From assembly GCA_030431935.1 (NCBI GenBank), contig JAUIIC010000003.1:1-48322 (forward strand): 48,322 nt of DNA, in the 5' to 3' direction. Shown here piece by piece: positions 17,080-43,167 of the stretch. The notes under the pieces were generated by a model. It worked only from the letters and a program-made list of their open reading frames with translations. It was not told the origin of the DNA and searched no databases. Source of the stretch: Alphaproteobacteria bacterium. GTDB taxonomy: Bacteria; Pseudomonadota; Alphaproteobacteria; Rhodobacterales; Rhodobacteraceae. The translations under genes and the position numbers were made by a program. Within the stretch, counting starts at the first letter, position 1. Each line of letters begins with the position of its first letter.

Positions 17080-18569
17080 GCGGCTTCGTCTTCCCGGAAT
17101 GCCAGTTCAAGCAGGCCTTCTTCGCTGGCCTCGGCGGCGGCGACCGTGTCCACCACGCGGCCCTGCGCCACCACGGCGATCCGGTCGCAGATCTGCAACA
17201 GTTCCGGCAGCTCCGAAGAGATTGCGAGCACCGCAGCGCCGTCTGCCGCCATCTGTCGGATCAGCGCATAGATCTCGGCCTTGGCCCCGACGTCGACGCC
17301 GCGTGTCGGCTCGTCCAGCAAGATGACGCGCGGTCCTATCGCCAGCCATTTGGCAAGCGACACCTTCTGCTGGTTGCCGCCCGACAAGGTGCCGACGGCG
17401 ACCGACGGGCTTGCGGCCTTCACGCCGAGCCGGGTCATCCAATCGCGCGCGAATGCGCCGATCCGACCCGGCGTCACCAGCCCGCCCCGGGACAGCGCCT
17501 TGAGGCTGGGCAGCGCGATGTTGTCCGCGATCGGCAGTTGCAGCACGAGGCCCAACCCCTTGCGGTCTTCCGACACATAGGCAACGCCCTGGCTAAGGGC
17601 CTCGCGGATGTCACGCGGCGCGTAGGCCTTGCCGAAGAGGCTCATCGCGCCGCTGTCGGGTCTGTCGATTCCGGCGAGCAGCCGGGCGATCTCGGTGCGC
17701 CCGGAGCCCATGAGACCCGCCACGCCAAGAACTTCGCCGGCATGCAGGGTCAGGTCCGCGCCGCGGACCGCCGGATGCCGATGCAATCCCTGTGCCGTGA
17801 GCGCGACCGGCAGGGTGTCGGTATCCGCGCCGTGACGGTCTTCAGCCACGTCGCGGCCCACCATGGCGCGGATCAGGGCCGGGCGGTCCAGGCTCGAGGT
17901 CTCGCCCGTCAAGACGAACCGCCCGTCGCGCAGCACCGTGATGCGATCCGACAGGGCGAACACTTCGGACATGCGATGGGTGATGTAGACGATGCCGACA
18001 CCGTCGGCCCGGAGGCGGCGGATGATCTCGAACAGCCGCTCTTCTTCGGCGCGTCCAAGCGAGGACGTGGGTTCATCCAGAATCAGGACCTTGGGCCGTT
18101 CGGCGCAAGCGCGGGCGATCTCGATCATCTGGCGCTGTCCTGTCGAAAGCGCGCCCGCGGGAGCGCGCGCATCGAGGTCGATCCCGAGGCGCTCCAATAT
18201 GGCCTGGGCCTCCGCCACCATTGCCCGACGGTCGAGCCAAAGACCGCCCGCCTGCACGGGTTCTCGGCCGATCATCAGGTTTTCCGCGATCGAGCGGTTG
18301 GGCAGCACGGTCAGTTCCTGGAACACCGTCTGGATCCCTGCGGCCTTCGCCTCGGCCGGGCTGTCGAAGCTGATCGCGCGGCCATCCAGTCGGATCTGGC
18401 CCGTGTCGGGCGGAAACAGACCGGATGCTATTTTCATGAGGGTCGATTTGCCCGCACCGTTTTCCCCCATGAAAGCATGGACCTCACCGGCCACGAGATC
18501 GAATCGCGCGCCGTCGAGGGCCAGCACCCCGGGAAACCGTTTGGAGATGTCGTCGAGTTCAAGCAGCAA
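17076..18569 (-). CDS. Sugar ABC transporter ATP-binding protein with two ATPase domains (RbsA/XylG type)
   Basis: ISKRFPGVLALDGARFDLVAGEVHAFMGENGAGKSTLMKI; second domain LSGGNQQKVSLAKWLAIGPRVILLDEPTRGVDVGAKAEIY. Confidence 0.96.
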   Translation of the reverse strand: MLLELDDISKRFPGVLALDGARFDLVAGEVHAFMGENGAGKSTLMKIASGLFPPDTGQIRLDGRAISFDSPAEAKAAGIQTVFQELTVLPNRSIAENLMIGREPVQAGGLWLDRRAMVAEAQAILERLGIDLDARAPAGALSTGQRQMIEIARACAERPKVLILDEPTSSLGRAEEERLFEIIRRLRADGVGIVYITHRMSEVFALSDRITVLRDGRFVLTGETSSLDRPALIRAMVGRDVAEDRHGADTDTLPVALTAQGLHRHPAVRGADLTLHAGEVLGVAGLMGSGRTEIARLLAGIDRPDSGAMSLFGKAYAPRDIREALSQGVAYVSEDRKGLGLVLQLPIADNIALPSLKALSRGGLVTPGRIGAFARDWMTRLGVKAASPSVAVGTLSGGNQQKVSLAKWLAIGPRVILLDEPTRGVDVGAKAEIYALIRQMAADGAAVLAISSELPELLQICDRIAVVAQGRVVDTVAAAEASEEGLLELAFREDEAA

Positions 18570-18591
18570 GGGCAGGGTCCTGTCGGACGTC

Positions 18592-18627
18592 GAGCCGGGG
18601 CAGGGGCATCAACCCCCACCCCGGCTC
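18592..18627. promoter_or_regulatory. Hairpin between the SBP gene and the downstream ATPase gene
   Basis: GAGCCGGGG-CA-GGGG-CATCAA-CCCC-CA-CCCCGGCTC: 9-bp outer and 4-bp inner stem, about 20 nt past the SBP stop on the minus strand. Confidence 0.8.
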
Positions 18628-18646
18628 TTCGGGGAGGAGAGGCGGA

Positions 18647-19672
18647 TCAGTTTTCCCACGGAGGGGTGACGCCGGGATACTGGACCTCCCACATCTCGGC
18701 GTAGTTGTCCGCTGTCACGAGCAGGTTGGGCGTGATGATCTCGTCGCAAAGCTCTGCACCGAGGATCGCCTGGGACAACCCTTCGAGTGCGGCGCGCCCC
18801 TGTAGTGCGGCCTGTTGGCCCGACAGGGCGACGATGTTCGTATCGCCCGAGTGCAGTTCCATGTAGCCCGGCACTTCGCTGTCATAGCCCGCGATCAGGA
18901 TATTGCGCCCCGACTGCTCGACGGCCTCGTTCGCCGCATTCACGGCAAGCGACCAGGTGGCGACGATCCCGGCCAGATCGGGATTGGCCTGGATCACGTT
19001 CGTGGCGAGTTCGAGCAGTCGATCCTGGCTGAAGTCGGACTGCAGGGAGATGATCTGCCCGCCTGCGGCGCCGACCGCGTCGAGGACGCCCTTTTCACGA
19101 TCCCGAATGGTCTGAAGCGCGAAGGGAATGCCGAGGATCGCGATCTGGGCGTTGGGCTCTCCAATGGCGTCCATCATCGCAGCCGTGGCATCGAAACTCC
19201 CCTGGTAGGAGGCGGCGTTCATCACCGAGATGACTTGGCCACGGGCCGGCGCTCCGCCCACGATGAACACCGGAATGTCGGCGTCGTTCGCACGCCGCAC
19301 GGCCTGTCCGATCGACCCCGCATCAACGGCGGTGAGGAAAATGCCGTCAACGCCCCGCTGCACCAGCGCATCGAACTGGCTGAGCTGCGTGTTGGCGTCG
19401 AAATCGGCGTTGTTGATCACCAGTTCGACGCCCAATTCCCCTGCGAAGGCTTCTGCGCCCGAGACAAGCGTGCGGCTGAAATCGTCGGACTGGTTGTTGG
19501 TCAGAAAACCGAAGGTCAGCCCGCGCGCACCGATGTCGGCCGCTTGTTCTGGTGTCAGCTGAAGGGCCTCCGCCGTGCCCAGGCATTCCTGGGCGGCTGC
19601 CGTTCCCGTCATGAGTGCGGTGATGGCCAGGGCCGAAACGGCGAGGCCGGGTCTTTTGTGGATGCGGGTCAT
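18647..19672 (-). CDS. Sugar-binding protein (periplasmic binding protein, RbsB/XylF type)
   Basis: Signal peptide MTRIHKRPGLAVSALAITALMTGTAAAQE; GLTFGFLTNNQSDDFSRTLVSGAEAFAGELGVELVINNADFDANTQLSQFDALVQRGVDGIFLTAVD. Confidence 0.95.
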   Translation of the reverse strand: MTRIHKRPGLAVSALAITALMTGTAAAQECLGTAEALQLTPEQAADIGARGLTFGFLTNNQSDDFSRTLVSGAEAFAGELGVELVINNADFDANTQLSQFDALVQRGVDGIFLTAVDAGSIGQAVRRANDADIPVFIVGGAPARGQVISVMNAASYQGSFDATAAMMDAIGEPNAQIAILGIPFALQTIRDREKGVLDAVGAAGGQIISLQSDFSQDRLLELATNVIQANPDLAGIVATWSLAVNAANEAVEQSGRNILIAGYDSEVPGYMELHSGDTNIVALSGQQAALQGRAALEGLSQAILGAELCDEIITPNLLVTADNYAEMWEVQYPGVTPPWEN

Positions 19673-19728
19673 GATGTCCTCCCTCGGATTACCCTGTCTC
19701 ACCAAAACGCGAATCGCGGCCTTTTGCA

Positions 19729-19744
19729 ATACAAACGTTTGTAT
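19729..19744. promoter_or_regulatory. Perfect 16-bp LacI-family operator upstream of the xylF-type operon
   Basis: ATACAAACGTTTGTAT, a perfect palindrome 57 bp upstream of the SBP start. Confidence 0.85.
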
Positions 19745-19757
19745 TTTTGCATACCGA

Positions 19758-21791
19758 TCATCCTGGCAGCAGGTCGATGGATGCGCCCGATCGCAGGAAA
19801 ACGGGGATCCTGTCGATGGGCGTCTCGATATCGACCGACTGCCCGCCCGGCTGTGTCGCGCCCGACCAGGCATCCTTCCAACTGTGTCCGGCAGGCAGAT
19901 AGACGCTTCGGGATTTTGCGGCGGCGGCAAGAACCGGCGCGACCAGCAGATCCGACCCCAGCATGAACTGGTCGTCGATCTCCCAGGCTTCGGGGTCTTC
20001 GGGAAACTCCAGCAAGAGCGGGCGCATCGGTGGCAAGCCGGTCGTCGAGGCGATGTGCATCTGCTCGGTCAGGTAGGGCCGCAGACGTTCGCGCAGGTCG
20101 AGACAGGCGACCAGATGGGCCTCCACCTGGGGGCCGAAACTCCAGATCTCGTTGTCCGCACCGCCGGCGAGAAACTCCCGGCCCAGTCTCGGGTCACCCG
20201 CACTGTCCTGCCGGAAGCCATGCAGGCGGAAGACGGGGCAGAACACGCCATACTGGAACCAGCGGATCAGCAATTCATGAAAGCCCGGATCGCGGATATC
20301 GCCGCCCTTGAAGCCACCGATGTCGGTGGTCCACCAGTGTATTCCGCTCATGGCCATGTTGAGGCCCGCGCGGACCTGCCGGGACAGATCGGCGAAGGTC
20401 GATTTCACATCGCCCGACCAGACCACCACCGGGTGGCGCTGGGTGCCCAACCACGCCGAGCGGGACAGCAATACGCCATCCTCGATCCCATCCGCGACCA
20501 TGTGATCGGCATAGCCCTGCTGGTGAAGCAGCGGATAGGAATTCGTGACCGCCCGACCGTCTCCCGCGTGGTAGCGCATGTTGTCGGGGTGGGTCGGATA
20601 GACTTCCGGCTCGTTCGCATCGAGCCAGAAGGCCTTGAAGCCGTGCCGCACGTAGCCATCGCGCACGCGCGCCCAGTGGTAATCGCGTGCCTGCGGATTG
20701 GTGGCGTCATAGAAGGACAGAGGCACCAACCCGTCGGAATTGGCATCGACGAAAACCGAGGAGGCCTGCACCCCGCGTCGGTGCTCGATCAAGAACCCGG
20801 CATCGCGCATGTCGGCGAAATTCGCAGCGTTCGCGTTGACGGCCGGCCAGACGGAAATCATCGGGCGCATGCCCATGTCCTCGAGCTCGGCCACCATCGC
20901 GCCGGGGTCGGGAAACGCCTCGGGGTCTATCCGCCACTCGCCGCCCTTGGTCCAGTTGAAGAAGTCGATGACGAAACAGCCCACCTTCAGCCCGCGGCGG
21001 TGATACTCGCGTGCAACGCGCAGAACCTCGTCCTGCGAGGCATACCTCAGCTTGCACTGCCAGAACCCCAGGGCCCAGTCGGGCATCATCGGCGGATGGC
21101 CCGTCAATGCTGCGTATTCTCTCAGGATGGTCGCGGGCTCCGGTCCCGCGATCACCACGTAATCCAGCTGCGGGCTGGCATCGAGCGTCCACAGCGTCCG
21201 GTTCGCCGCAAGTTCGACGCGGCCCGTGCCGGGGTTGTTCCACAGAAAGCCATAGCCGCGTGACGAAACAAGGAAGGGGATCACGACCTCGGTGTTCATC
21301 TGCAGAAGGTCGATCACGCAGCCCTTCTGATCGAGGAGCCCGTGTTGATGCTGACCCAGACCGTAGAAGCGTTCATCGTCCTCGGCGCGAAACCGGGTTT
21401 CGATGTGCCACAAGTGCCCATCTTCGGCATCATAGTTCCGGGTGTTGGGATAGAGGATATGCGGCATTTCCTCTTGCAGCAGCACCTTGTCCGTCACCGT
21501 GTCGTGAAAGGACAGTTCGAGCGTGGCCTCCAGACCGCGGGGCATCTTGCGGATCTCGGCACGGAGGCGGCCATTGGTGACGGTGGCAAGCGCGTCGCCG
21601 ATCTCGATTCGCCCCTCGGCGGCAACAGGCACATCGGGCAGGAGGCCGCTGGGAAGCGCATCGTCGAACTCCGCATTCCGCGTTGCCCGCACCCGGATGG
21701 CCCCTTCGCCGATCGGCTCGATCCACAGCGTCTCGCGGCCGATGCGACAGATCAGGCGGCGGTCATCGACATGGAACAGGTCGGGCAGCAT
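19758..21791 (-). CDS. GH31 glycoside hydrolase, alpha-xylosidase-like (copy 2)
   Basis: WALGFWQCKLRYASQDEVL, FFNWTKGGEW, FWLDANEPEVYPTHPDN, SRSAWLGTQRHPVVVWSGDV, WWTTDIGGF. No signal peptide. Confidence 0.92.
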   Translation of the reverse strand: MLPDLFHVDDRRLICRIGRETLWIEPIGEGAIRVRATRNAEFDDALPSGLLPDVPVAAEGRIEIGDALATVTNGRLRAEIRKMPRGLEATLELSFHDTVTDKVLLQEEMPHILYPNTRNYDAEDGHLWHIETRFRAEDDERFYGLGQHQHGLLDQKGCVIDLLQMNTEVVIPFLVSSRGYGFLWNNPGTGRVELAANRTLWTLDASPQLDYVVIAGPEPATILREYAALTGHPPMMPDWALGFWQCKLRYASQDEVLRVAREYHRRGLKVGCFVIDFFNWTKGGEWRIDPEAFPDPGAMVAELEDMGMRPMISVWPAVNANAANFADMRDAGFLIEHRRGVQASSVFVDANSDGLVPLSFYDATNPQARDYHWARVRDGYVRHGFKAFWLDANEPEVYPTHPDNMRYHAGDGRAVTNSYPLLHQQGYADHMVADGIEDGVLLSRSAWLGTQRHPVVVWSGDVKSTFADLSRQVRAGLNMAMSGIHWWTTDIGGFKGGDIRDPGFHELLIRWFQYGVFCPVFRLHGFRQDSAGDPRLGREFLAGGADNEIWSFGPQVEAHLVACLDLRERLRPYLTEQMHIASTTGLPPMRPLLLEFPEDPEAWEIDDQFMLGSDLLVAPVLAAAAKSRSVYLPAGHSWKDAWSGATQPGGQSVDIETPIDRIPVFLRSGASIDLLPG

Positions 21792-21842: not shown

Positions 21843-22466
21843 TCAGGGGCGCAGGCCGCGCAGGACCAGCTCGGTGACTTCATCCGCGATGTGGGTCGCA
21901 TCGAGCGGCGCGTCTTCGGCAAGGCCCAGCATGAAGCGCGCCTCGGTGGCGTGCAGGGCGTAATGCTGGGTCAGTGCCCAGATGTTGAATTGCAGCAGGA
22001 CCGGATCGACCGGCCGGATCAAGTCTTCGGCAATCCAGCGCTCGATCACCTCTGATGCGTGTCGGGTCGCCTCGCGCGACGTGTCCCAAAAGTCATGCAG
22101 GAAGGGGGCGCCTCGCATCACTTCTCCCGTGAACATGCGCGAAACCTCGGGGTGATCGATGGCGTGCCGCACCTTGCGCTCGATGTAGTCGCGCAGGAAA
22201 CGCTCAGGCCCCGCGGTCATGTCGAGGCCATGGAACAGGTCTGCCCAGACTTCGACGATGTGGCGCAAGGCGTCGACATACAGGTCTTGCTTCGAGGGAA
22301 TGTAGTAGTGCAGGCGCGTCTTGCTCATCCCGGCGCGATCGGCGATCGCCTGTGTCGAGGCCCCGTTCAACCCGTTGAGCGCGAATTCGGCGATTGCCGC
22401 CGCGCGGATCGTGCCCATCAGTTCTTCGCGGCGGGCGGCAAGATCGCCGCGGACTGCGCGGCTCAT
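21843..22466 (-). CDS. TetR-family regulator, RutR-like
   Basis: HTH AIADRAGMSKTRLHYYIPSKQDLYVDALRHIVEVWADLF; C-terminal IRPVDPVLLQFNIWALTQHYA..GLRP, matching the RutR pattern IDPQHLIFMIWASTQHYA..GIRP. Confidence 0.88.
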   Translation of the reverse strand: MSRAVRGDLAARREELMGTIRAAAIAEFALNGLNGASTQAIADRAGMSKTRLHYYIPSKQDLYVDALRHIVEVWADLFHGLDMTAGPERFLRDYIERKVRHAIDHPEVSRMFTGEVMRGAPFLHDFWDTSREATRHASEVIERWIAEDLIRPVDPVLLQFNIWALTQHYALHATEARFMLGLAEDAPLDATHIADEVTELVLRGLRP

Positions 22467-22557
22467 CGGGCGCTCCGTGAACGGGCTGTCTCGCCGCGGC
22501 GCATCGGTGCCGGTGGGCGGGTCCTGAAACCTGTGAAGCTGGGCATGTGTTCTCCGA

Positions 22558-23151
22558 TCAGACTTTTCGCATCAGCGCGCCCACTCGATCGAGAAAGCGT
22601 GCGCGTTCCGCATCGCTCCGGTGGTTCATGCTGTAAAGCTGCCTCCAGTGGAAGCGGCAGCGGGGGTGAAAGATCGGGCGCAGCCCGCGGGTCCAGAGGC
22701 TCCGGCCGGGATCACGGATCAGCCGGATCCACCACCACGGCGACCCGGAGGTGGTGACCCCGATGAACAGGCGGATGTTCCGAAGCTTCCCCGAGGGCCG
22801 GTCTGTCACGGATTTCGGGATCTCGAACGTGACGCCCGGCAGCCAGACGCGTTCCAGCCATCCCTTCAGCATGGCCGGAGCGCCATAATACCAGGTCGGG
22901 TAAATGACGATGAGCCCCTCGGCCCAGGTCAGATCGTCGATCTGGTCGGATTGCGCGGCGATGTTCGCCGTGGGTTCCGAGAGATAGCGGTCCCATTCCA
23001 GTCGGCTCATCACGGGGTTGAAGCCCTCGGCGTAGAGGTCTCGGATGCGAAGCGCGTGCCCCGCATCCGAAAGGGTTTGCCGCACGCGCGCCAGGATCGC
23101 GGCCCCGAAGCTGTCGGGGCTCGGGTGGCAAAAGACAATCAGCAGGCGCAT
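22558..23151 (-). CDS. NAD(P)H dehydrogenase (quinone)-like flavodoxin-fold protein
   Basis: MRLLIVFCHPSPDSFGAAILARVRQTLSDAGHALRIRDLYAEGFNPVMS..LIVIYPTWYYGAPAMLKGWLERVWLPGVTFE. Confidence 0.93.
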   Translation of the reverse strand: MRLLIVFCHPSPDSFGAAILARVRQTLSDAGHALRIRDLYAEGFNPVMSRLEWDRYLSEPTANIAAQSDQIDDLTWAEGLIVIYPTWYYGAPAMLKGWLERVWLPGVTFEIPKSVTDRPSGKLRNIRLFIGVTTSGSPWWWIRLIRDPGRSLWTRGLRPIFHPRCRFHWRQLYSMNHRSDAERARFLDRVGALMRKV

Positions 23152-23182
23152 GTGCGGATCTTCTTGTCAGGGCATTCAGGTG

Positions 23183-24175
23183 TCACTGCGGGCGCAACTC
23201 GAGGCCGACGCCGCGGTTCACGAAACGGTCGGTCACGGCGGCGTCCACATCCACCGTGCCCTCGGGGATGATGCCCGCAGTTTCCGCAAGTGCCAGGAAG
23301 TCCGCGACGCGGTCCATGTCCATCGCGCCGATGCCCAGCTCGAGCGCATTGCCGGAATCGACGATCCCAAGCCGCACCATCTGTTCAAATTGCTCGTCGA
23401 GCGAGGCCAGCGTCGCATCGGGATTGTCGCGCATGATCAACTCGTAGGCGGCAGAACGATCACCGTAGAGGAAATTGTACCACCCGATGATCGAGGCATC
23501 GATGAAGCGCTGCACCAGATCGGGGTTCGTCTCGATCAGCTCGGTGCGGGTCTCGATCGTGGTCGAATAGGTCGACCAGCCGTAATCGGCGAGCATGAAC
23601 ACATCGACATCAGCCCCTTGCGCCGCGGCATAAAGCGGCTCGGACGTGGCATAGCCTTGCTGCACGATGGTTTCGTCCTGCAGGAACTGCGCCAGGTTGA
23701 AGCCATAGGGCCGCAGTTGTTCATCGGTGAAACCTTGCGTCGCCGTCAGCCATTGCCAGAAGCTGAATTGCCCGTCACGGCTGATCAGCACGGTGGGGGC
23801 GCTCGCAAGCTCTTCCCAGCTGTCGTATTGGCCGGAATGAGCCATCAGGATCTGTGGGTCGCGCTGGAAGAAGGCCGCGACGACCTGGGTGGGGATGCCG
23901 TTGCGGGTGTTGTCGAAGGACAAAAGGAGGTTGCCCGCCATAAGGAAATCCAACCGCCCGGCGGCCACCAGAGGGCGGTTGTTGACCTGCGGACCGCCCA
24001 TGACGATCTCCACGTCCAGCCCGTATTCGGCATAGGTCCCATCGGCCAGGGCCTGATAGAACCCGCCGTGGCCGGTCTGGGCAAGCCAATTGGTCCCGAA
24101 CCGGACACTGTCTTGCGCCGAAGCGGCCGTGGCCATCAAAGCCGCGGCCAGGGCCGCGATCCATCTTGTCTGCAT
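23183..24175 (-). CDS. ABC transporter substrate-binding protein, NMT1/THI5-like
   Basis: Signal peptide MQTRWIAALAAALMATAASAQD; VRFGTNWLAQTGHGGFYQALADGTYAEYGLDVEIVMGGPQVNNRPLVAAGRLDFLM. Confidence 0.92.
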   Translation of the reverse strand: MQTRWIAALAAALMATAASAQDSVRFGTNWLAQTGHGGFYQALADGTYAEYGLDVEIVMGGPQVNNRPLVAAGRLDFLMAGNLLLSFDNTRNGIPTQVVAAFFQRDPQILMAHSGQYDSWEELASAPTVLISRDGQFSFWQWLTATQGFTDEQLRPYGFNLAQFLQDETIVQQGYATSEPLYAAAQGADVDVFMLADYGWSTYSTTIETRTELIETNPDLVQRFIDASIIGWYNFLYGDRSAAYELIMRDNPDATLASLDEQFEQMVRLGIVDSGNALELGIGAMDMDRVADFLALAETAGIIPEGTVDVDAAVTDRFVNRGVGLELRPQ

Positions 24176-24206
24176 ATCCTGTTCCTCCCTTTTGGTGCAG
24201 TCGCAG

Positions 24207-25586
24207 TCAGTTCGCCGCCACGGGCCGTGCCATATCGGCCGTCCAGCCGCGGGTCTTGCCGGGGTTCATCAGGCCCTGCGGGTCCGCCCGGCGCTTGAAG
24301 TCGATCTGGGTGCTGTCGATCTCCTTCATCCCTCCATCTTCGATGGTGACCACATGAGGGTCGTAGATCGTGCAGCCGTCCAGGCGCTCCATCTCGTCGA
24401 TGATCTCGTAGATCCGCTCGCTCGAGGTCCAGCGCACCAGTGGCAAGGCGAAGATCTGCACGTGGCCGCCCATGCGTGCCATCTCGTGATGGAAATAGAC
24501 CTCGTCGCCATAACGCTGCATCTGGCGCATCACCAACGCGGGGTCGAAAGGGGCGGGATAGGCCACCTGCAGGTAGGTCCAGACACCCGGCTCGTGCTTG
24601 AGCGCTTGCAAGGTGGTGTGGTTCCAGCCGCATTCCCAAGCCGGGGGCAGATTGTCCGCCTCAAGCTGGGTAAGGGTTTTCTGCACGCTGATCCGGCCGC
24701 CATGTGCCGCCACAAGGTCTGCGAAGCTCTCGAGCGTTTCGGGTGCGACCATGGCGAAGACGCCGTCGCGATCCGACGGAAACACGTCCCGAAGACGCTT
24801 GTAGAATTGCGCGATGCGTCGCTCGACGACGGTCAGCAGGTAGGTGTCCATCCCGCCATCCTGTGCCGCCTGCGCAAAGCGCAGCGCCGCGTCATAGCCG
24901 TCGAACAGTGCCACGACATGCCGCCAGTCGGTGCGCGGCACCAGCGCGAAATCCAGCCGGGTGATGATCCCGTTCGTGCCGTAGGCGTGCTGGACCTTCT
25001 GGATGTCGGCTCCGCGCAGCTCGATCACCTGAGGCTCGGGTTCCACCGTCACGACGCGGACATAGGCCACGTTCCCGTCGTCGCGCAGCATTCCGTGGCG
25101 CAGGCTGCCGATGCCGCCCGAGCCTCCGGCGATGAAGCCGCCCATCGTGGCCTGGCGCTTGGTGGAGGGGAACATTGCCAGCATCTGGCCTGTCTCGGCC
25201 ACGGCTTCCTCCACCTTTTCCATCCGCGCACCCGCCTCGCAGATGACACGCCCGGGCGACACCTCGATCACGCGGTTCATCCGCGTGACGTCCAGCACCG
25301 CCCCGCCGTCCAGCGGCACGCATTGGCCATAGTTGCCCGTCCCACCGCCGCGCACGGTCAAGGGCACACCGTGGCGCGCAGCGGCGCGGGCCACGGCGAT
25401 CACCTCGTCCTCGGACTCGGGCATGATAAGGAGCTGCCCTGTCTTTCCGTCCAGTTTTTGGGACAGGATGGGCGAATACCAATAATAGTCCTTCGAGCGT
25501 GCCTCCAGTTGCTTGGGGTCGTCGAAGACGCGGATCGCGCCCAGATCGGAGCGGAAGGCGGCCAGAGTGTCGGCTGAAACGGTCAT
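24207..25586 (-). CDS. FAD-binding oxidase/dehydrogenase (GlcD/VAO type)
   Basis: PESEDEVIAVARAAARHGVPLTVRGGGTGNYGQCVPLDGGAVLDVTRMNRVIEVSPGRVICEAGARMEKVEEAV. Confidence 0.93.
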   Translation of the reverse strand: MTVSADTLAAFRSDLGAIRVFDDPKQLEARSKDYYWYSPILSQKLDGKTGQLLIMPESEDEVIAVARAAARHGVPLTVRGGGTGNYGQCVPLDGGAVLDVTRMNRVIEVSPGRVICEAGARMEKVEEAVAETGQMLAMFPSTKRQATMGGFIAGGSGGIGSLRHGMLRDDGNVAYVRVVTVEPEPQVIELRGADIQKVQHAYGTNGIITRLDFALVPRTDWRHVVALFDGYDAALRFAQAAQDGGMDTYLLTVVERRIAQFYKRLRDVFPSDRDGVFAMVAPETLESFADLVAAHGGRISVQKTLTQLEADNLPPAWECGWNHTTLQALKHEPGVWTYLQVAYPAPFDPALVMRQMQRYGDEVYFHHEMARMGGHVQIFALPLVRWTSSERIYEIIDEMERLDGCTIYDPHVVTIEDGGMKEIDSTQIDFKRRADPQGLMNPGKTRGWTADMARPVAAN

Positions 25587-26749
25587 GCAGGAACCTTTCT
25601 GTTTTCGGGCATGTCCTGCCCTGCGCACAGGACGCGGCGGTGGGCCGGCGCGCGAAGCGCGTCGTGCCAATCGCGTCCCGCGACGAGGAGCAGGTCGGCC
25701 GGCGCGCCAGGGACGATAGGGGGCAACGGGTCGAGACCGAGCGCGCGGGCCGGTGCGGTCGTGATGGCTTCGAGCCAGTCGGCCGGGTCGAGATGCGCCG
25801 CGACACAGGCGAGGCGCAGGGTCTCGAGCGGATCGTAACAGCCGAAGGGATAGAAAGGGTCAGCCACGTTGTCGGCGCCGAACATCACCTCGACCCCGGC
25901 GGCGCGCGCCTCTTGCAGCGGGGCGAGGCCACGCAGGCGGGGCGTGCGGCCATGTTGGCCGTCTTGCAGCCAGAGATTGGTCGGCGGCAGCACGCACAGG
26001 GCCACACCCGCCTTTGCCGCCCTATCGAGGACACGCGCTACCTCGTCTGTCGGTCGGATCGACAGTGCGCAGGCATGCCCGCACAAAACCTGGCCCGTCA
26101 TGCCGTGCCGCGCGGCAAGGCGCACGATCTCGTCAAAGCCCTGGGCTTCAGCCTCCAGCCCTTCATCGACATGGAAGTCGAGGCGCAGCCCATGCGTGTC
26201 GGCAAGGTCGAAGACGCGCGCCAGCTTCGCAGCAAGGTCGGCGTTGCGATAGATGAAGCTGCCAAGGACACCGTCGCCGGTCGCGGCGACATGTGCGGCG
26301 ATGGGCGGGCCCAGCTCCGCATCGCCCAAAAGGTCGAGTGGCACCAAGGGCGCGCGCTGAAGGCGAAGGGGTGCATCTGCCGCCATTTCGCCCAACACGT
26401 CCCAGGCCAGCGGAACGCCCGGCTCGTTCCAGTCCACATGGGTGCGTAGGGCGCGCGTTCCGGCGGCACCGGCCTCGGTCAGGGCGCGTTCGGCGCGCGC
26501 GCGGATGTCTTCGGCCGTCCAGCTCGCCCGGTCTGTCAGCGTGGCCTCGATGGCGGGGAAGAGCCCCGATGCCGGGGGCTTGGCGCGGGGCCACAGAAAG
26601 GTCTTGTCCAGATGCACATGCGGATCGACTGGACGCGGCATCACTTGCCAAACGGCAGGGCCATGTGCCGGCTCGATCCGCGCGATCCGCCCGTCTTCGA
26701 TCTCCAACGCGACAGTGCGGCCGCCGAGGGTGACGCCATCAAGTCTCAC
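25583..26749 (-). CDS. Amidohydrolase, cytosine deaminase-like
   Basis: PRPVDPHVHLDKTFLWPRAKP..LRTHVDWNEP..LRLDFHVDEGLEAEA..CGHACALS..MFGADNVADPFYPFG. Confidence 0.9.
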   Translation of the reverse strand: MRLDGVTLGGRTVALEIEDGRIARIEPAHGPAVWQVMPRPVDPHVHLDKTFLWPRAKPPASGLFPAIEATLTDRASWTAEDIRARAERALTEAGAAGTRALRTHVDWNEPGVPLAWDVLGEMAADAPLRLQRAPLVPLDLLGDAELGPPIAAHVAATGDGVLGSFIYRNADLAAKLARVFDLADTHGLRLDFHVDEGLEAEAQGFDEIVRLAARHGMTGQVLCGHACALSIRPTDEVARVLDRAAKAGVALCVLPPTNLWLQDGQHGRTPRLRGLAPLQEARAAGVEVMFGADNVADPFYPFGCYDPLETLRLACVAAHLDPADWLEAITTAPARALGLDPLPPIVPGAPADLLLVAGRDWHDALRAPAHRRVLCAGQDMPENRKVPA

Positions 26750-27602
26750 GTTTGATCTCGCTTTCGTGCCACCGTCCCAGCACGAGCTTGGAGGCCAGAG
26801 ATGTCATCAGGAAGATGGCCACACCCATCAGCGACACCAGCACCAGGGCCGCAAACATCTTCGGGATCTCGTTGCGAAAGCTCGACTCGATGATGCGGGA
26901 GGCAAGGCCGGTGTTGGTGCCGGTGGCGCCCGCCACGAACTCGGCCACCACCGCGCCGATGAGCGACAGCCCGCCCGCGATCTTCAGCGCGGCCATGAAA
27001 TAGGGCAGGGCCGATGGCGAGAGCAAATGCCGCAACCGTTGCCAGGGCGTTGCCCGGTACAACGAGAACAGATCGCGCAGATTGTGATCGGTCGAGCGCA
27101 GACCGACCACCGTGTTCGACAGGATCGGGAAGAAGGCGACCAGCCAGGCGCAGATCAAGAGCGCGGTGAAGGTGTTGTGGACATAGATCAGGATCAGCGG
27201 CGCGATGGCCACGATCGGTGTCACCTGCAAAATCACGGCAAAGGGAAACAGGCTCATCTCGACGGGGCGCGACAATGCGAACAGCGCCCCAAGCACGACG
27301 CCCCCGATGATGGCGAGCGCGAGGGAGAAAAAGGTCAGCCTGACCGTGAACCACGCCGATTGCATCAACGATGGCCCCTCGGCCAGAAGTGTCGACCAGA
27401 TCAGGCTGGGGGCCGGGATCAGATAATGCGGCACCTCATGATACCAGACCAGGAATTCCCAAAGTCCCACGGCCAGCGCGATTGTTGCGACCGGCAAGAC
27501 CCACGCGAGGATCCGTTGCCGTCTGGCGCGGGCGAGAGCTGCCATGTTGACCGGCGGCGGCGCCTCTTGGGCGCTATCGTCAATGGTCGATGTCGGCGTC
27601 AT
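26739..27602 (-). CDS. ABC transporter permease (Ssu/Tau/ThiX type)
   Basis: EFLVWYHEVPHYLIPAPSLIWSTLLAEG..VAFFPILSNTVVGLRS..LRHLLSPSALPYFMAALKIAGGLSLIGAVVAEFVAG. Confidence 0.94.
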   Translation of the reverse strand: MTPTSTIDDSAQEAPPPVNMAALARARRQRILAWVLPVATIALAVGLWEFLVWYHEVPHYLIPAPSLIWSTLLAEGPSLMQSAWFTVRLTFFSLALAIIGGVVLGALFALSRPVEMSLFPFAVILQVTPIVAIAPLILIYVHNTFTALLICAWLVAFFPILSNTVVGLRSTDHNLRDLFSLYRATPWQRLRHLLSPSALPYFMAALKIAGGLSLIGAVVAEFVAGATGTNTGLASRIIESSFRNEIPKMFAALVLVSLMGVAIFLMTSLASKLVLGRWHESEIKRET

Positions 27603-28392
27603 CGAGCGTCCCTTTCAGTATGGTCGAGACCCGCTTTGCCTCTGCCGAGAATTCGGGCGAGACGCGATATTCCTCGCCGCGCGGCCAGGGCGCATTGACC
27701 GTCAGATCGGCCACGACCCGCCCGGGACGCGCCGCCATCACCGCGATCCGGTTCGACAGGTAGACGGCCTCGTAAACGGAGTGGGTCACGAAGATCACCG
27801 TCAGGTCATGTTCAGTGGCCAGCCGGATCACGTCGTTGTTGAGCTTGGTGCGCGTCATCTCGTCGAGGGCGGCGAAGGGCTCGTCCATGAGCAGGATACG
27901 CGGTCGTGTCACCAGACCGCGGGCGATGGAGACGCGCATCTTCATGCCGCCCGACAATTCGCGCGGGTAGGCGTTCTCGAAGCGTGACAGGCCGACTTCC
28001 ACGAGGGCTGCGCGCACCCGGTCGCTTGCGGCGGTGCGCGACAGCCCGGCAAGCCGGAGTGGCAGCCAGACATTCTCGAAGACCGTGGCCCAGGGCATCA
28101 GGGTCGGCTCCTGGAACACGAAGCCGAGGTCGTGCTCGGTGTCGGTCTGGGAGGGCGCGATGTCGATATGCCCCGCGGTGATCGGCAAGAGCCCGGCAAT
28201 CATCCTGAGCGCCGTGGATTTTCCGCAGCCCGAAGGCCCCAGGAAGCTGATGAAATCGCCCCGTTCAATGGTCAGGCTCATGTCAGAAACAGCGACGATG
28301 TCGCGTCCGAATTCCTTGCGCACCCGCTCCATGCGGATCAGGGGAGCGCCGGTTTTCGAGGGACGCGTTTCAGCTGAGGTGCGGGACGTCAT
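27580..28392 (-). CDS. ABC transporter ATP-binding protein (Ssu/Tau/ThiZ type)
   Basis: Walker A GPSGCGKST, LSGGMKMRVSIARGL, Walker B ILLMDEPFAALDEMTR. Confidence 0.95.
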   Translation of the reverse strand: MTSRTSAETRPSKTGAPLIRMERVRKEFGRDIVAVSDMSLTIERGDFISFLGPSGCGKSTALRMIAGLLPITAGHIDIAPSQTDTEHDLGFVFQEPTLMPWATVFENVWLPLRLAGLSRTAASDRVRAALVEVGLSRFENAYPRELSGGMKMRVSIARGLVTRPRILLMDEPFAALDEMTRTKLNNDVIRLATEHDLTVIFVTHSVYEAVYLSNRIAVMAARPGRVVADLTVNAPWPRGEEYRVSPEFSAEAKRVSTILKGTLDDADIDH

Positions 28393-29213
28393 GGCGCGGC
28401 CCCCGGATTGGCGGGATTGTCGAGGACGGAGAGCGGCAGGTCGGCCACTTCCTGCAACAACGTCACAAGCTCGCGCGCCGCGTGATCGACGAAGGCGCGC
28501 CCCTTTTCGGCCGTGGCGGCGGCGGCATTTCCCATGGCGCCGGCCGGGTGCAGGTCCTGTGCCTGCCATCCCAGCTTGCCACCGGCCCCAAGGCCCAGGT
28601 GGCGTCGCGCTTCGGCAAGGGTGCGGTTGAAGGGCCGGAAATCCCCGGCACGCTCCATCGCCACGAGATCGCCCTTCAGGGTCAGCATCATCGAGGTTTC
28701 CATGTCGCCTGCGTGAACACCGTCCCGCGCTTCGTCTTCATCCAGGAGACCGTCGGGAAGTCCCATCGCGAACCAGCTGGCGGCAACGCAGATCATGTCG
28801 TGTTTGATGCGCAGGTCGCGTGCGACGATGTCCATCGGCGCGATCTGGCCGCCGTGGCTGTTGAGCAGGATCATCCGCAGCACGCCTGCCGCCGCGACAC
28901 TGTCGCCGATGTCGGACCACATCGACATCAGGGTTTGCGCCGACAGGGTCAGGGTTCCGGGATAGCGGGCGTGCTCGTTGCTTTTGCCCACGGCGCAGGT
29001 CGGCAGGAACAGGGCCGGGCAGTCATCGGGTATCAGCGGAATGGCCGCCGAGATGATCCCGTCGAGGATGTCACGATCCACCGACAACGGCAGGTGCGGC
29101 CCGTGCTGTTCTATCGCTCCGACCGGCAGCACGGCAACCAGCGCCTCGCGGTCCAGCGCGGCGAAGTCTGCGGCGGTGTAGTCCGCCCAATATCTGTGCG
29201 AAAATCCGGTCAT
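28389..29213 (-). CDS. Creatininase-family hydrolase
   Basis: AVLPVGAIEQHGPHLPLSVDRDILDGI..NSHGGQ..HAGDMETSMML: metal-ligand motifs present. Confidence 0.93.
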   Translation of the reverse strand: MTGFSHRYWADYTAADFAALDREALVAVLPVGAIEQHGPHLPLSVDRDILDGIISAAIPLIPDDCPALFLPTCAVGKSNEHARYPGTLTLSAQTLMSMWSDIGDSVAAAGVLRMILLNSHGGQIAPMDIVARDLRIKHDMICVAASWFAMGLPDGLLDEDEARDGVHAGDMETSMMLTLKGDLVAMERAGDFRPFNRTLAEARRHLGLGAGGKLGWQAQDLHPAGAMGNAAAATAEKGRAFVDHAARELVTLLQEVADLPLSVLDNPANPGAAP

Positions 29214-31618
29214 GGGCCCGACGACAGCAAGCCGAGTGGGCGCCCGGGTGCCAGGGCGCCGGAAGCCGCGACGATCGCGGCCCGGTCGATCTCGAAATGC
29301 CTGTAAAGGTCGGCGACCGTCCCGGTCTGGCCGAAATGCTCGACCCCAAGCGCAGCAACGCGGTGACCATGCACGGCCCCCAGCCAGGACAGCGTCGCGG
29401 GGTGGCCGTCGATCACCGTCACGATCAGGCAATGCCTTGGAAGATCGGCCAGCAACGTCTCGATATGGGCTTCCGCGTTTTCGCCGTGCATTCGAGCGCG
29501 TTGCGCGGCCTGCCATCCCGCGTTCAACCGGTCGGCTGATGTGACGGCGAGAACACCGACGTCGCGCCGCCCTTCCGCCACATGTGCCGCCGCGGCGATC
29601 GCTTCCGAGGCCACGACACCCTGGTAGGCTATGACGACTTCGGCATTCGGACCGGGTGGGCGCAGCCAGTACCCTCCGTCCACCACCCCATCGCGCAGCG
29701 CGGCAAGCGGGCGCTGCGGCTGCTCCAGCGGTCTTGTCGACAGGCGCAGATAGACCGACCCGCCGCCCGCGTCGCGGCTCCACTCGGCGGTATCGGCCGC
29801 CGCGCCGTCGCGTTGCATGTACTCGAGTGCCCATTCGAGGATGATCGCCAGTTCGTCGGAGAAGGCCGGCTCGAAGGAGGCGAGGCCGTCCTGGCTCATG
29901 CCGATCAGGGGCGTGCCCACGGATTGATGCGCCCCGCCCTCGGGTGCCAGCGTCACCCCCGAGGGCGTCGCCACAAGCAGGAACCGCGCATCCTGGTAAC
30001 AGGCGTAGTTCAGGGCATCGAGACCGCGCGCAATGAATGGATCGTAAAGCGTGCCGACCGGCAGCAGGCGCTCCCCGAACAACTCATGGCTCAACCCAGC
30101 CGCCCCGAGCAGCAGGAACAGGTTCATTTCGGCGATGCCCAGTTCGATGTGCTGGCCATCGGGCGAAAAGCGCCACTTCTGCGTCGAGGGCACACGCTCA
30201 GCGCGGAACGTGTCATCGATCTCTTCGCGTGAGAACAGCCCACGGCGATTGACCCACGGTCCCAGGTTGGTCGAGACGGTCACATCGGGGGAAGTCGTGA
30301 CGATCCGCCGGGCCAGGTCACTGTCCGTCTTCGCAATCTGATCCATCAGCTTGCCGAAGGCCGCCTGTGTCGAGATCTCGCGGTCGGTCGGCGCTTCGAG
30401 CGGCGGCACCGGGACCGCCGGGGCGGTCGTGCGCCTTGGCCCCGCGGCGAAAAAGGGCGCGCGCGCCAGCAGCGCGTCCAGATCGGCGTCGGACATGTCC
30501 AGACCTTCGGCACGGTCCCACTCGTGACCCGCGCGGATGCCATGTGCCGCGCGAAACTCTTCCATCTGCGCGGGCGTCATCAGGCCGGCGTGGTTGTCCT
30601 TGTGTCCGGCCAGCGGCGTGCCCCAGCCCTTCACCGTGTAGGCCACGAAGGCCGTGGGCCTGTCATCTCCCGCCGCATGGTCGAACCCGTCGAGCAGGGT
30701 TTCGACGCAATGGCCGCCGAGATTTTCCATCAGGGCGGCGAGGTCTTCGTCGCTGCGGCGATTCAGCAGTGCCGTGATCGGCCCCTGGTCGCCAAGGTCG
30801 TCCATCAGGCGTTTGCGCCATGCTGCGCCACCCTGAAAGATGAGCGCCGAATAGAGCGAGTTGGGGCAGGCGTCGATCCAGTCGCGCAGCGCCGCGCCGC
30901 CCGGTTCGTCAAAGGCCGCGCGTTGAAGGCGGCCGTATTTCAGGTTGATCACGCGCCAGCCGAAGGCCCCAAAGATCGCTTCGATCCGCGCCGACAGGCC
31001 TTCGCGAACCACACCGTCGAGGCTCTGACGGTTGTAGTCGATGATCCACCAGCAGTTCCTGAGCCCCTGTTTCCAGCCCTCCTGAAGGCACTCGTAGATG
31101 TTGCCCTCATCCAGCTCGGCATCGCCCACGAGAGCCACCATGCGCCCCTCGGGCCCGCTGCCCCAACCGCGGGCGCGGATGTAATCCTGCACGAGCGCCC
31201 CGAACGCGGTGATGGCGACGCCAAGCCCCACCGAGCCGGTCGAAAAATCGACATCGTCCACGTCCTTGGTGCGCGACGGGTAGGATTGCGCGCCGCCCCA
31301 GCCGCGAAAATCCTCGAGTTTCCGGCGCGGCATTCGGTTGGCCAGATATTGTAGGGCGTGAAAGACCGGACCGGCGTGCGGCTTCACGGCCACCCGGTCC
31401 TGTGGTCCGAGGACGGCACCGTAAAGCACCGTCATCAAGGTCGCCATGGAGGCGCAGGACGCCTGATGGCCGCCGACCTTCACCGCGTCGGCCTTTGGCC
31501 GCAGGTGGTTCGCATGGTGGATCGTCCAGGCGCTGAGCCAAAGCGCCTTGCGAGCGAGGGCCTCGAGCTCGGGCGTGGTCAACCTGTCTTCGGCCGGGAT
31601 CCGGGCGTGATGAGACAT
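29210..31618 (-). CDS. Transketolase / homodimeric pyruvate-dehydrogenase-E1 (AceE)-like TPP enzyme
   Basis: 802 aa; HYxxRPKADAVKVGGHQASCASMATLMTVLY..GGAQSYPSRTKDVDDVDFSTGSVGLGVAITAFG..ALVGDAELDEGNIYECLQEGWKQGLRNCWWIIDYNRQSLDG..YTVKGWGTPLAGHKDNH. Confidence 0.9.
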   Translation of the reverse strand: MSHHARIPAEDRLTTPELEALARKALWLSAWTIHHANHLRPKADAVKVGGHQASCASMATLMTVLYGAVLGPQDRVAVKPHAGPVFHALQYLANRMPRRKLEDFRGWGGAQSYPSRTKDVDDVDFSTGSVGLGVAITAFGALVQDYIRARGWGSGPEGRMVALVGDAELDEGNIYECLQEGWKQGLRNCWWIIDYNRQSLDGVVREGLSARIEAIFGAFGWRVINLKYGRLQRAAFDEPGGAALRDWIDACPNSLYSALIFQGGAAWRKRLMDDLGDQGPITALLNRRSDEDLAALMENLGGHCVETLLDGFDHAAGDDRPTAFVAYTVKGWGTPLAGHKDNHAGLMTPAQMEEFRAAHGIRAGHEWDRAEGLDMSDADLDALLARAPFFAAGPRRTTAPAVPVPPLEAPTDREISTQAAFGKLMDQIAKTDSDLARRIVTTSPDVTVSTNLGPWVNRRGLFSREEIDDTFRAERVPSTQKWRFSPDGQHIELGIAEMNLFLLLGAAGLSHELFGERLLPVGTLYDPFIARGLDALNYACYQDARFLLVATPSGVTLAPEGGAHQSVGTPLIGMSQDGLASFEPAFSDELAIILEWALEYMQRDGAAADTAEWSRDAGGGSVYLRLSTRPLEQPQRPLAALRDGVVDGGYWLRPPGPNAEVVIAYQGVVASEAIAAAAHVAEGRRDVGVLAVTSADRLNAGWQAAQRARMHGENAEAHIETLLADLPRHCLIVTVIDGHPATLSWLGAVHGHRVAALGVEHFGQTGTVADLYRHFEIDRAAIVAASGALAPGRPLGLLSSGP

Positions 31619-31686
31619 GTCTGGTCCTGTCGCGTCGTTCGCCTCGAGTGAGCAACGGAAACCCCCGATCTGTCAATCCATTTGGT

Positions 31687-31702
31687 TTGTGCAGATGGTC
31701 AA
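31687..31702. promoter_or_regulatory. Candidate RutR-type operator upstream of the transketolase operon
   Basis: TTGTGCAGATGGTCAA against the E. coli RutR consensus TTGACCAnnTGGTCAA: right half exact, left half 5/7. Confidence 0.6.
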
Positions 31703-31975: not shown

Positions 31976-32791
31976 GGCAGTGTCAGAGGAAACTCGGCTT
32001 GAGGTGGGGCAGGGGGCTATCTAGCGTCTGCGCATGCCCAAGCGCTCGCCCTTCAAGTACTTCAAGACCAGCCCTGAAATCATCCGCCTGGCGGTGATGC
32101 TCTACGTCCGGTTCCCGCTTTCATTGCGAAACGTGGAGGACCTGCTCCACGAGCGCGGCGTCGAGGTCAGTCACGAAACGATCCGGTACTGGTGGAACAG
32201 GTTTGGTCCACTGTTCGCTTCCGAGATCCGGAAGCGCCGAATTGAAGGCATGCGATCCAGCCGGTGGCGATGGCATCTCGATGAGATCTTCGTGAAGATC
32301 AACGGCGAGATGCACTACCTCTGGCGTGCCGTCGATCATGAGGGAGAAGTGCTCGAAAGCTTCGTCACCAAGGCGCGGGACAGGAAGGCTGCTCTGAAAT
32401 TCCTAAGGAAAGCAATGCGCAAGCACGGTAAGCCTGAGACGATTGTGACCGACAAGCTGAGATCCTATCGCGCGGCGCTCAAGGAAGTTGGTGCTGGCTT
32501 CCGCCAAGAAACGGGACGCTGGGTCAATAATAGAGCGGAGAACTCACACTTGCCGTTCCGACAACGCGAGCGGGCCATGCTCCGTTTCCGGCGCATGCGA
32601 AGTTTACAGAAATTTGCCTCTGTCCATGCCTCTGTCACCAACCACTTCAACACCGACCGCAGCCTCTCCAGTCGACCGCACTTCAAGCTGAACCGCACTG
32701 CCGCACTCGACGAATGGCGCTGCCTCTTCGCGGCATAAAGGGCAGGGCGGCTGTCTTAGTGGAGACTGGTTCGAATTAGTCTGACAGCACC
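31976..32791 (+). mobile_element. IS6-family insertion sequence (boundaries approximate)
   Basis: Intact IS6 transposase flanked by imperfect inverted ends: GGCAGTGTCAGA (31976-31987) and TCTGACAGCACC (32780-32791; reverse complement GGTGCTGTCAGA), 9/12 identical. Confidence 0.7.
32034..32738 (+). CDS. IS6-family transposase (IS26/IS6100-like)
   Basis: MPKRSPFKYFKTSPEIIRLAVMLYVRFPLSLRNVEDLLHERGVEVSHETIRYWWNRFG..WRWHLDEIFVKINGEMHYLWRAVDHEGEVLESFVTKARDRKAALKFL..VTDKLRSYRAAL..NNRAENSHLPFRQRERAM. Confidence 0.97.
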   Translation: MPKRSPFKYFKTSPEIIRLAVMLYVRFPLSLRNVEDLLHERGVEVSHETIRYWWNRFGPLFASEIRKRRIEGMRSSRWRWHLDEIFVKINGEMHYLWRAVDHEGEVLESFVTKARDRKAALKFLRKAMRKHGKPETIVTDKLRSYRAALKEVGAGFRQETGRWVNNRAENSHLPFRQRERAMLRFRRMRSLQKFASVHASVTNHFNTDRSLSSRPHFKLNRTAALDEWRCLFAA

Positions 32792-34588: not shown

Positions 34589-35557
34589 TCACGAATGGCG
34601 CCTTGGGGCGATCGTCGGCCGGATCCGCGTCTTTCCGATAGGATAACCGAATGCTTTGCGGAAAGACTTGGACAGGCTGGGTGCGCCGGAGAAGCCGCAA
34701 CGGACGGCGATCTCCGAAAGGTCCAAATCCGTTTCGACCGCCAACTCCCGAGCGCGCGACAGCCTCAGGAGCTGATAGTATTGTCCGGGCGGCATTCCGA
34801 GCTCCGCAAGAAAGAGTCGGTTAAGCGACCGGGTGGACAAGCCCGAACGCTTCGCCAGTTCGTTCAGGGGCAACGGCGTTTCGGTGTGCGTGGCAATGTC
34901 TCGAAGGATTGTACTCAGTTTCGTTGATGATCTGCCTTTTAGCCGAGCTGGACCGCAGCTCGTGGCTTCCTGACGGGCGGCGTCGTGCAGAAAAAGCGTT
35001 GACACATCGAAGGCACTGGCCGCTCCGAAACGGCCTCCGATCAGCTGAAGCATCAGATCAAGGGCAGTCGAAGCTCCGCCGCAGGTCCAGACGCGCCCAT
35101 CCATGACGTACCGGTCGTGGACGACATCGAGTTGGGGAAACGCTTCGGCCAGTTCGGACAGAACCTGCCAGTGAACGGTCGCGCGACCTTCCGTGAGAAG
35201 CCCCGCAGCCGCGAGAAGCCATGCCGCGGTATCGGCGCCCAGAACGGTTTCGGCGCGCCGCGCGAGCTGACCGAGGATACGGGCGTTCCGACGCTCGGCG
35301 TGGCGCTGGTACCCGTAGCCCGCTACGACGATGAGCAGATCGACCCTGTCGATGTCGGAGCAAGGACTGTCCGGCGTGATGCGAAGGCCGCTGGAACTGC
35401 TGGCCGGTGCGTCGTCGCTTGTCACGACCGTCCAGTCGATCTCGACCCTTCCCTGATCGCGTAGCGCGCGCAGGGGCTCCAACAGGCACGCGAGCACCAT
35501 GTTGGAGAACCCCGAATAGATCAGGACGGCGACCGAGAAACGTCGGCTCTTGGCCAT
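34589..35557 (-). CDS. GlxA-type AraC-family regulator (carnitine-regulator CdhR-like)
   Basis: DJ-1/PfpI-like N-terminus (RRFSVAVLIYSGFSNMVLACLLEPLRALRDQ) plus C-terminal AraC HTH (LNELAKRSGLSTRSLNRLFLAELGMPPGQYYQLLRLSRARELAVETDLDLSEIAVRCGFSGAPSLSKSFRKAFGYPI). Confidence 0.92.
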   Translation of the reverse strand: MAKSRRFSVAVLIYSGFSNMVLACLLEPLRALRDQGRVEIDWTVVTSDDAPASSSSGLRITPDSPCSDIDRVDLLIVVAGYGYQRHAERRNARILGQLARRAETVLGADTAAWLLAAAGLLTEGRATVHWQVLSELAEAFPQLDVVHDRYVMDGRVWTCGGASTALDLMLQLIGGRFGAASAFDVSTLFLHDAARQEATSCGPARLKGRSSTKLSTILRDIATHTETPLPLNELAKRSGLSTRSLNRLFLAELGMPPGQYYQLLRLSRARELAVETDLDLSEIAVRCGFSGAPSLSKSFRKAFGYPIGKTRIRPTIAPRRHS

Positions 35558-35664
35558 TTCAAACCTATATTTGGCAAGATAAGACAATCCGGCTTCTTCT
35601 TGCAAGGCTAGCCTTCGATTGGTCGGCGCGCGTCGCACGCGCGGGATTGTCAGAAGGAAAGTCC

Positions 35665-38018: not shown

Positions 38019-38062
38019 ACGGGCGAGCGCAAAACAGGAAAATGACACCAGGGAAGGACAAT

Positions 38063-39649: not shown

Positions 39650-39658
39650 GGCGGGCCC

Positions 39659-43064: not shown

Positions 43065-43167
43065 TGCGTTCGCACCTCTCCGTGTTCCGTCGACATGCGT
43101 GGTTTCGGTTGCAGCGCATGGATCTCCCGTTCCCAGTCTTCTCTCCCCTCCTGCAAGGATTGCTGTA

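Follow-up and report, generated by a model that had tools for sequence, protein, structure and literature searches.

The operator of the TetR-family regulator RutR has the consensus TTGACCAnnTGGTCAA. In CodA, the cytosine deaminase of Escherichia coli, residues H61, H63, H214, E217, H246 and D313 have metal-binding or catalytic roles, and Q156 and D314 recognize cytosine. A flavin-dependent enzyme has been solved as PDB entries 6V42 and 6V43, the former under the title "Crystal structure of the flavin oxygenase with cofactor bound involved in folate catabolism." Work published in 2025 by the Begley group on the breakdown of vitamin B2 counts, among cofactors, only the catabolic pathways of vitamin B6, nicotinamide adenine dinucleotide (NAD) and riboflavin as well characterized; it describes, in the lumichrome (lum) cluster of Nocardioides simplex, a thiamin pyrophosphate (TPP) enzyme, LumK/LumL, that decarboxylates a heterocyclic 2-carboxylate after hydrolysis of the pyrimidine ring (PMC12746152). 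Here we describe a nine-gene operon from an alphaproteobacterium of the family Rhodobacteraceae (assembly GCA_030431935.1, contig JAUIIC010000003.1; the whole 48,322-nucleotide stretch that we analyzed is referred to as the window) that encodes a RutR-like regulator, a CodA-like amidohydrolase, a homologue of 6V42 and a TPP enzyme.

We are highly confident that this operon is real and conserved and that it serves the catabolism of a pyrimidine-type heterocycle. By a modest degree we also favor a more specific reading, in which the operon takes up and degrades a heterocycle with a fused or substituted pyrimidine ring, most probably a pterin or other folate-derived pteridine, under the control of a RutR paralogue. 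The pterin or folate part of this reading comes from the flavin adenine dinucleotide (FAD)-dependent enzyme of the window (FADox), because it is a full-length homologue of 6V42 and because a 6V42-like enzyme lies in a cluster of the same genes in Hoeflea. The closest solved protein to FADox is 6V42/6V43 (E=1e-123, residues 9-449), and 6V42 is likewise the top fold match of its structural model (predicted local distance difference test score [pLDDT] 85; template modelling score 0.87; 44% identity). The deposited enzyme is in turn 86% identical to the FADox of Hoeflea sp. BAL378 (locus L160), which is accompanied by genes for a creatininase, a binding protein, an ATPase, a permease, a CodA-like protein and a flavodoxin, its partners in the window, and by a gene for RidA. 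Read through this 86%-identical enzyme, the gene neighborhood of the window's operon matches that of a 6V42-type cluster. The pyrimidine-type ring is indicated by three other features, namely a CodA-like protein that has kept the catalytic residues of CodA but lost those for cytosine, a binding protein nearest in fold to pyrimidine binders, and a RutR-like regulator with its operator. The nine genes, all on the minus strand where they had been predicted, span 21843-31618 and run from the TPP enzyme gene (TK) to the TetR gene:

29210-31618, minus strand: AceE/transketolase-like TPP enzyme (TK), 802 amino acids, first gene of the operon; Pfam Transketolase_N, PDH_E1_M and Transketolase_C_1.
28389-29213, minus strand: creatininase-family metallohydrolase, presumed cyclic-amide hydrolase; PF02633, 1.5e-69.
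27580-28392, minus strand: ATPase of an ATP-binding cassette (ABC) importer; PF00005, kept across clusters.
26739-27602, minus strand: ABC importer permease; PF00528, 70-84% identity to clade A alphaproteobacterial sister clusters.
25583-26749, minus strand: CodA-like amidohydrolase (metal-dependent deaminase or hydrolase), GTG start; PF07969.
24207-25586, minus strand: FAD-binding_4 flavin oxygenase/oxidase (FADox); PDB 6V42, E=1e-123.
23183-24175, minus strand: NMT1/THI5-type substrate-binding protein; PF09084.
22558-23151, minus strand: Flavodoxin_2 NAD(P)H-dependent flavin/quinone reductase, presumed electron donor; PF02525.
21843-22466, minus strand: RutR-like TetR regulator; PF08362, TIGR03613 139.8 bits (cut-off 368).
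31687-31702, minus strand: RutR-type operator, first dyad TTGACCATCTGCACAA; 12 of 14 positions match (shuffle p=0.002), and a de novo search ahead of sister clusters gives the same motif.
31674-31689, minus strand: second, overlapping dyad CAAACCAAATGGATTG, 13 base pairs (bp) from the first; +/-13 bp are the two top-scoring offsets out of 60 in Rhodobacterales promoters.

Five of the junctions overlap, by ATGA at TK/creatininase, creatininase/ATPase and CodA/FADox, by 23 bp at ATPase/permease and by 11 bp at permease/CodA, and the other three junctions have gaps of 31, 31 and 91 bp, as in a single transcript.

A scan of GTDB genomes with a profile of FADox yielded at least 590 confirmed relatives, and we compared the clusters around the best 80 loci and ten plasmid loci, judging the presence of genes by tblastn. 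The core of creatininase, ATPase, permease, CodA-like protein, FADox and binding protein recurs in these loci, together with a regulator that is either a RutR-like TetR or a LysR and usually with RidA, and this core gene set is found in dozens of alpha- and betaproteobacteria; among relatives that can be cultured, Alloyangia pacifica and Paracoccus litorisediminis carry the cluster. Among the loci with enough flanking sequence, those of the window-like clade A (n=46) have creatininase in 42, ATPase in 40, permease in 41, the CodA-like gene in 42, binding protein in 41, TetR in 35 and RidA in 19, and those of clade B (n=28) have creatininase and the CodA-like gene in 25 each, RidA in 21 and TetR in none. 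Within a set of 196 related genomes, moreover, all 33 that bear FADox carry a CodA-like gene, almost always adjacent (36 have a CodA-like gene in all). The expectation that the gene set would be conserved was thus borne out in both clades, as was that of a catabolic operon for a cyclic nitrogen-containing compound. Of the three genes singled out as co-occurring, creatininase and the CodA-like deaminase are indeed conserved, and the transketolase is not part of the core. One genome (G062) has both a TK-headed clade A cluster (L176, C2:72000-90000) and a clade B pair of CodA-like and FADox genes (C54).

The product of the last gene has E. coli RutR (3loc) as its best match in the PDB, in agreement with its designation as a RutR-like TetR regulator, and the recognition helices are SKTRLHYY in the window and SKTNLLYY in RutR. 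Its score on TIGR03613, the RutR equivalog model, is 139.8 bits, below the cut-off of 368. Just upstream of the start codon of TK, the 16-mer at 31687-31702 agrees with the RutR consensus at 12 of its 14 fixed positions, and no other site in the window matches as well; only 0.2% of dinucleotide shuffles of the promoter score 12 or higher. The promoters of 37 TetR-bearing clusters also surpass shuffled sequences, with 21 of the 37 scoring at least 11/14 against 1.3% of the shuffles, and an unseeded Gibbs search with palindromic symmetry upstream of the same clusters recovers TTTGACCAATTGGTCAAA. Genome-wide, sites with up to two mismatches were not enriched (22, versus 20 for a reversed-pattern control). 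Because the single 16-mer is not enriched across the genome, the case for the operator depends entirely on where it lies and on its being kept in relatives. The predicted site stands as the first of two dyads; the prediction had missed the second, at 31674-31689. The two, TTGACCATCTGCACAA and, 13 bp further on, CAAACCAAATGGATTG, form a tandem of a kind common to Rhodobacterales, in which, among 60 offsets for a second site, -13 and +13 bp come out on top (14 Rhodobacterales-type promoters).

The regulator, its operator and the CodA-like enzyme might together suggest an operon for the catabolism of free pyrimidines (uracil, thymine, cytosine or 5-methylcytosine), as the original prediction had it, yet we consider this very improbable. 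The metal and catalytic residues of CodA (H61, H63, H214, E217, H246 and D313) are kept in 45-46 of 46 cluster members, whereas Q156 is kept in none, D314 is replaced by N in all 46 and W319 by F in all 46. With its cytosine-recognition residues lost, the CodA-like enzyme is unlikely to be a cytosine deaminase. A locus elsewhere in the same genome (G000, C18:890-8843, L190) also speaks against free pyrimidines: a RutR relative is there divergent from genes for an amidohydrolase, a dihydropyrimidinase and an NMT1-type ABC importer. This regulator reaches 240 bits on TIGR03613, also under the cut-off, and between its gene and those of the amidohydrolase, dihydropyrimidinase and importer lies an operator with one mismatch (CTGACCATTTGGTCAA, C18:1625-1640). 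Given the closer RutR relative, the one-mismatch operator, the dihydropyrimidinase and the importer of the C18 locus, the genome probably handles ordinary pyrimidine catabolism outside the operon of the window. RutA, for its part, was not found in the whole genome (84% complete), the best score being 47.9 bits against a curated cut-off of 498.3. This result, and the lack in the window cluster of RidA, the superfamily to which RutC belongs, agree with the prediction that rut genes are absent.

A different possibility is that the operon is of the same kind but acts on another pyrimidine-type substrate, such as the thiamin pyrimidine hydroxymethylpyrimidine (HMP), a product of flavin breakdown, a purine derivative or a xenobiotic. 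The binding protein gives this some substance: the best PDB folds for its model (pLDDT 93) are ThiY (3ix1), which binds formyl-aminopyrimidine, a thiamin-binding protein (4nmy) and Thi5. As a clue to the ligand, this resemblance in fold to proteins of thiamin-pyrimidine metabolism is a weak lead, since sequence identity to them is only 16-19%. Several further points favor another substrate or weigh against pterin or folate. The assignment of 6V42 to folate catabolism comes from its PDB title alone, and FADox of the window, at 44% identity, belongs to a different clade. Together with the presence of both clades in G062, this means that the substrates of the two clades may differ. In addition, Rieske, ferredoxin or VanB-type oxidoreductases have been added in some sister clusters, the window cluster has none of the RidA genes that many sister clusters carry, and no gene for p-aminobenzoyl-glutamate or other folate-specific function was recognized near the operon. 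On the other side, the two clades have the full set of genes in common and show identical changes in the CodA pocket, which favors related substrates. We therefore regard a substrate outside the pterins as possible but doubtful, and retain a pterin or other folate-derived pteridine as the preferred one.

The creatininase-family protein scores below the cut-off of the creatininase equivalog TIGR04448 (85.1 versus 235 bits) and still has the E, H, D and H residues that bind metal in this fold. Clade A clusters tend to carry either the Flavodoxin_2 gene or a ferredoxin/ferredoxin-reductase pair, mostly not both (Fisher p=0.01, among loci that are related), a pattern that fits, suggestively, a role of both as electron suppliers. 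Genes for Rieske VanA-type oxygenases are found near the cluster in five loci (L137, L126, L146, L153 and L157), and other sister clusters have genes for ferredoxin, ferredoxin reductase or a VanB-type reductase.

The TPP enzyme presents a separate question. It had been counted as part of the defining gene set, a place that we reject: TK is absent from most clusters and is an accessory gene. It scores 185 bits on NCBIfam aceE, whose cut-off is 860. Because it aligns to the E1 component of E. coli pyruvate dehydrogenase (PDH) only from residue 63 on and because the operon has no gene for an E2 or E3 partner, it could plausibly act as a decarboxylase of the non-oxidative type or as a ligase. Relatives of TK usually adjoin Lrp genes and often a methionine gamma-lyase gene, a linkage that several relatives show and the window's TK does not. 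They include a large alphaproteobacterial family of AceE-like TPP enzymes (L010-L044), often beside methionine gamma-lyase and Lrp and apparently without E2/E3 neighbors in annotated examples. The same genome has a second copy of TK (C214:5249-7600, L174), which is 70% identical, belongs to a different clade from the window's TK and adjoins a gene for an Lrp-type regulator.

TK might accordingly be a co-transcribed bystander, kin to the transketolase-like enzymes that lie beside methionine gamma-lyase and engaged in 2-oxobutyrate metabolism in the manner of mdeB, which would be compatible with the preferred reading of the other eight genes. The company kept by its close relatives, the second copy with its Lrp gene and the many clusters without TK are as a bystander would have it. 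However, TK is operonic not only in the window but also in three relatives, L086 (by an ATGA overlap with the CodA-like gene), L010 and L013, the last of which has the window's gene order; it heads the operon in all four. The operonic enzymes of the window, L086 and L010 group together in a single clade (support 100/98). Mapped on the tree, association with the cluster must have changed three times or more, by gain or by loss; L076, L091 and L120 have a different, long AceE-type enzyme near the cluster, and TK itself lies near but outside the operon in L075, L081, L082, L100 and L025. We thus think a bystander unlikely. The repeated association of TPP enzymes with the cluster suggests a 2-oxo acid or similar product rather than a core step, and it is because of this repeated recruitment that we place a TPP enzyme in the proposed pathway.

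From these observations we infer the following scheme for the breakdown of a pterin or related pteridine. The RutR paralogue would repress the operon from the tandem operator and would be released by the substrate or by a uracil-like intermediate, for example a lumazine. The compound would be taken up by the NMT1-type ABC importer, and the CodA-like enzyme would hydrolyze an exocyclic amino group of its pyrimidine ring, as in the conversion of a pterin to a lumazine. Oxidation of the ring would then fall to the FAD oxygenase, which the Flavodoxin_2 reductase would return to its reduced state; the creatininase-family enzyme would open a cyclic amide, and a RidA protein encoded elsewhere would remove imines. 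Finally, the AceE-like TPP enzyme may decarboxylate or ligate a 2-oxo acid or heterocyclic 2-carboxylate product. The boldest combination, in which a pteridine-sensing RutR paralogue governs catabolism of the pterin (folate) ring and the AceE-like enzyme decarboxylates a heterocycle independently of LumK/LumL, we judge to be a long shot.

The surroundings of the operon are of other kinds. An IS6-type (DDE_Tnp_IS240) transposase gene lies just upstream of the promoter (32034-32738), for which terminal inverted repeats were sought and none found. Directly downstream of the TetR gene is a separate operon for a family 31 glycoside hydrolase (GH31) and a ribose/arabinose-type sugar ABC importer (16108-21791), and a separate catabolic locus at 34592-45648 encodes a GbdR/AraC-type regulator, a dipeptide/nickel-type ABC importer and a class III coenzyme A-transferase.

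The bacterial route for the destruction of folate has not been worked out, and a cluster that is conserved, has relatives across hundreds of genomes, is linked to folate catabolism through one enzyme and comes with a clear regulator and operator makes folate or pterin breakdown directly testable. If the proposal is right, a sensor of pyrimidines has been redeployed for a larger ring, and a TPP enzyme has possibly acquired a new reaction. Searches of the open-licence literature for 6V42/6V43, folate catabolism clusters, this gene set and mdeB turned up no paper on the pathway, nor one on 6V42/6V43, and to that extent the operon is undescribed, as had been claimed. Nonetheless, the FADox family has a solved member that its depositors assign to folate catabolism and that represents a cluster type with the same genes; the cluster is of a kind already touched by a PDB deposit and is not a categorically new system.

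With the 6V42/6V43-type cluster (Hoeflea/Mesorhizobium type) the operon shares a homologous FAD enzyme, the creatininase, the ABC importer, the CodA-like protein and a flavodoxin-type reductase; it differs in having a RutR-like TetR where that type has a LysR or unknown regulator, in placing a TPP enzyme first and in lacking RidA. Its regulator resembles RutR (TIGR03613) in family, TetR_C_3 domain, near-identical recognition helix and a RutR-type operator before the operon, but it scores far below the cut-off, is found without rut or pyd genes, has tandem dyads 13 bp apart and has in its own genome a closer relative of RutR. The CodA-like protein has the fold and all the metal and catalytic residues of E. 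coli CodA, but has replaced Q156, D314 and W319 in all 46 cluster members and falls below the NCBIfam cut-offs. TK has the domain order of mdeB-like, AceE-type homodimeric 2-oxo acid dehydrogenase E1 enzymes and relatives beside methionine gamma-lyase, whereas its N terminus is shorter, its aceE score is far under the cut-off and its operon has no E2 or E3 gene. The lum cluster, finally, offers a chemical analogy only, in the hydrolytic breakdown of a pyrimidine ring and the subsequent action of a TPP enzyme on a heterocyclic 2-carboxylate: LumK/LumL consists of two small subunits of 20 and 23 kDa, and the lum genes encode a P450, a xanthine oxidase and Rieske and catechol dioxygenases (PMC12746152), whereas the enzyme of the window is a single 802-residue AceE-like chain in a different gene set and, presumably, with a different substrate.

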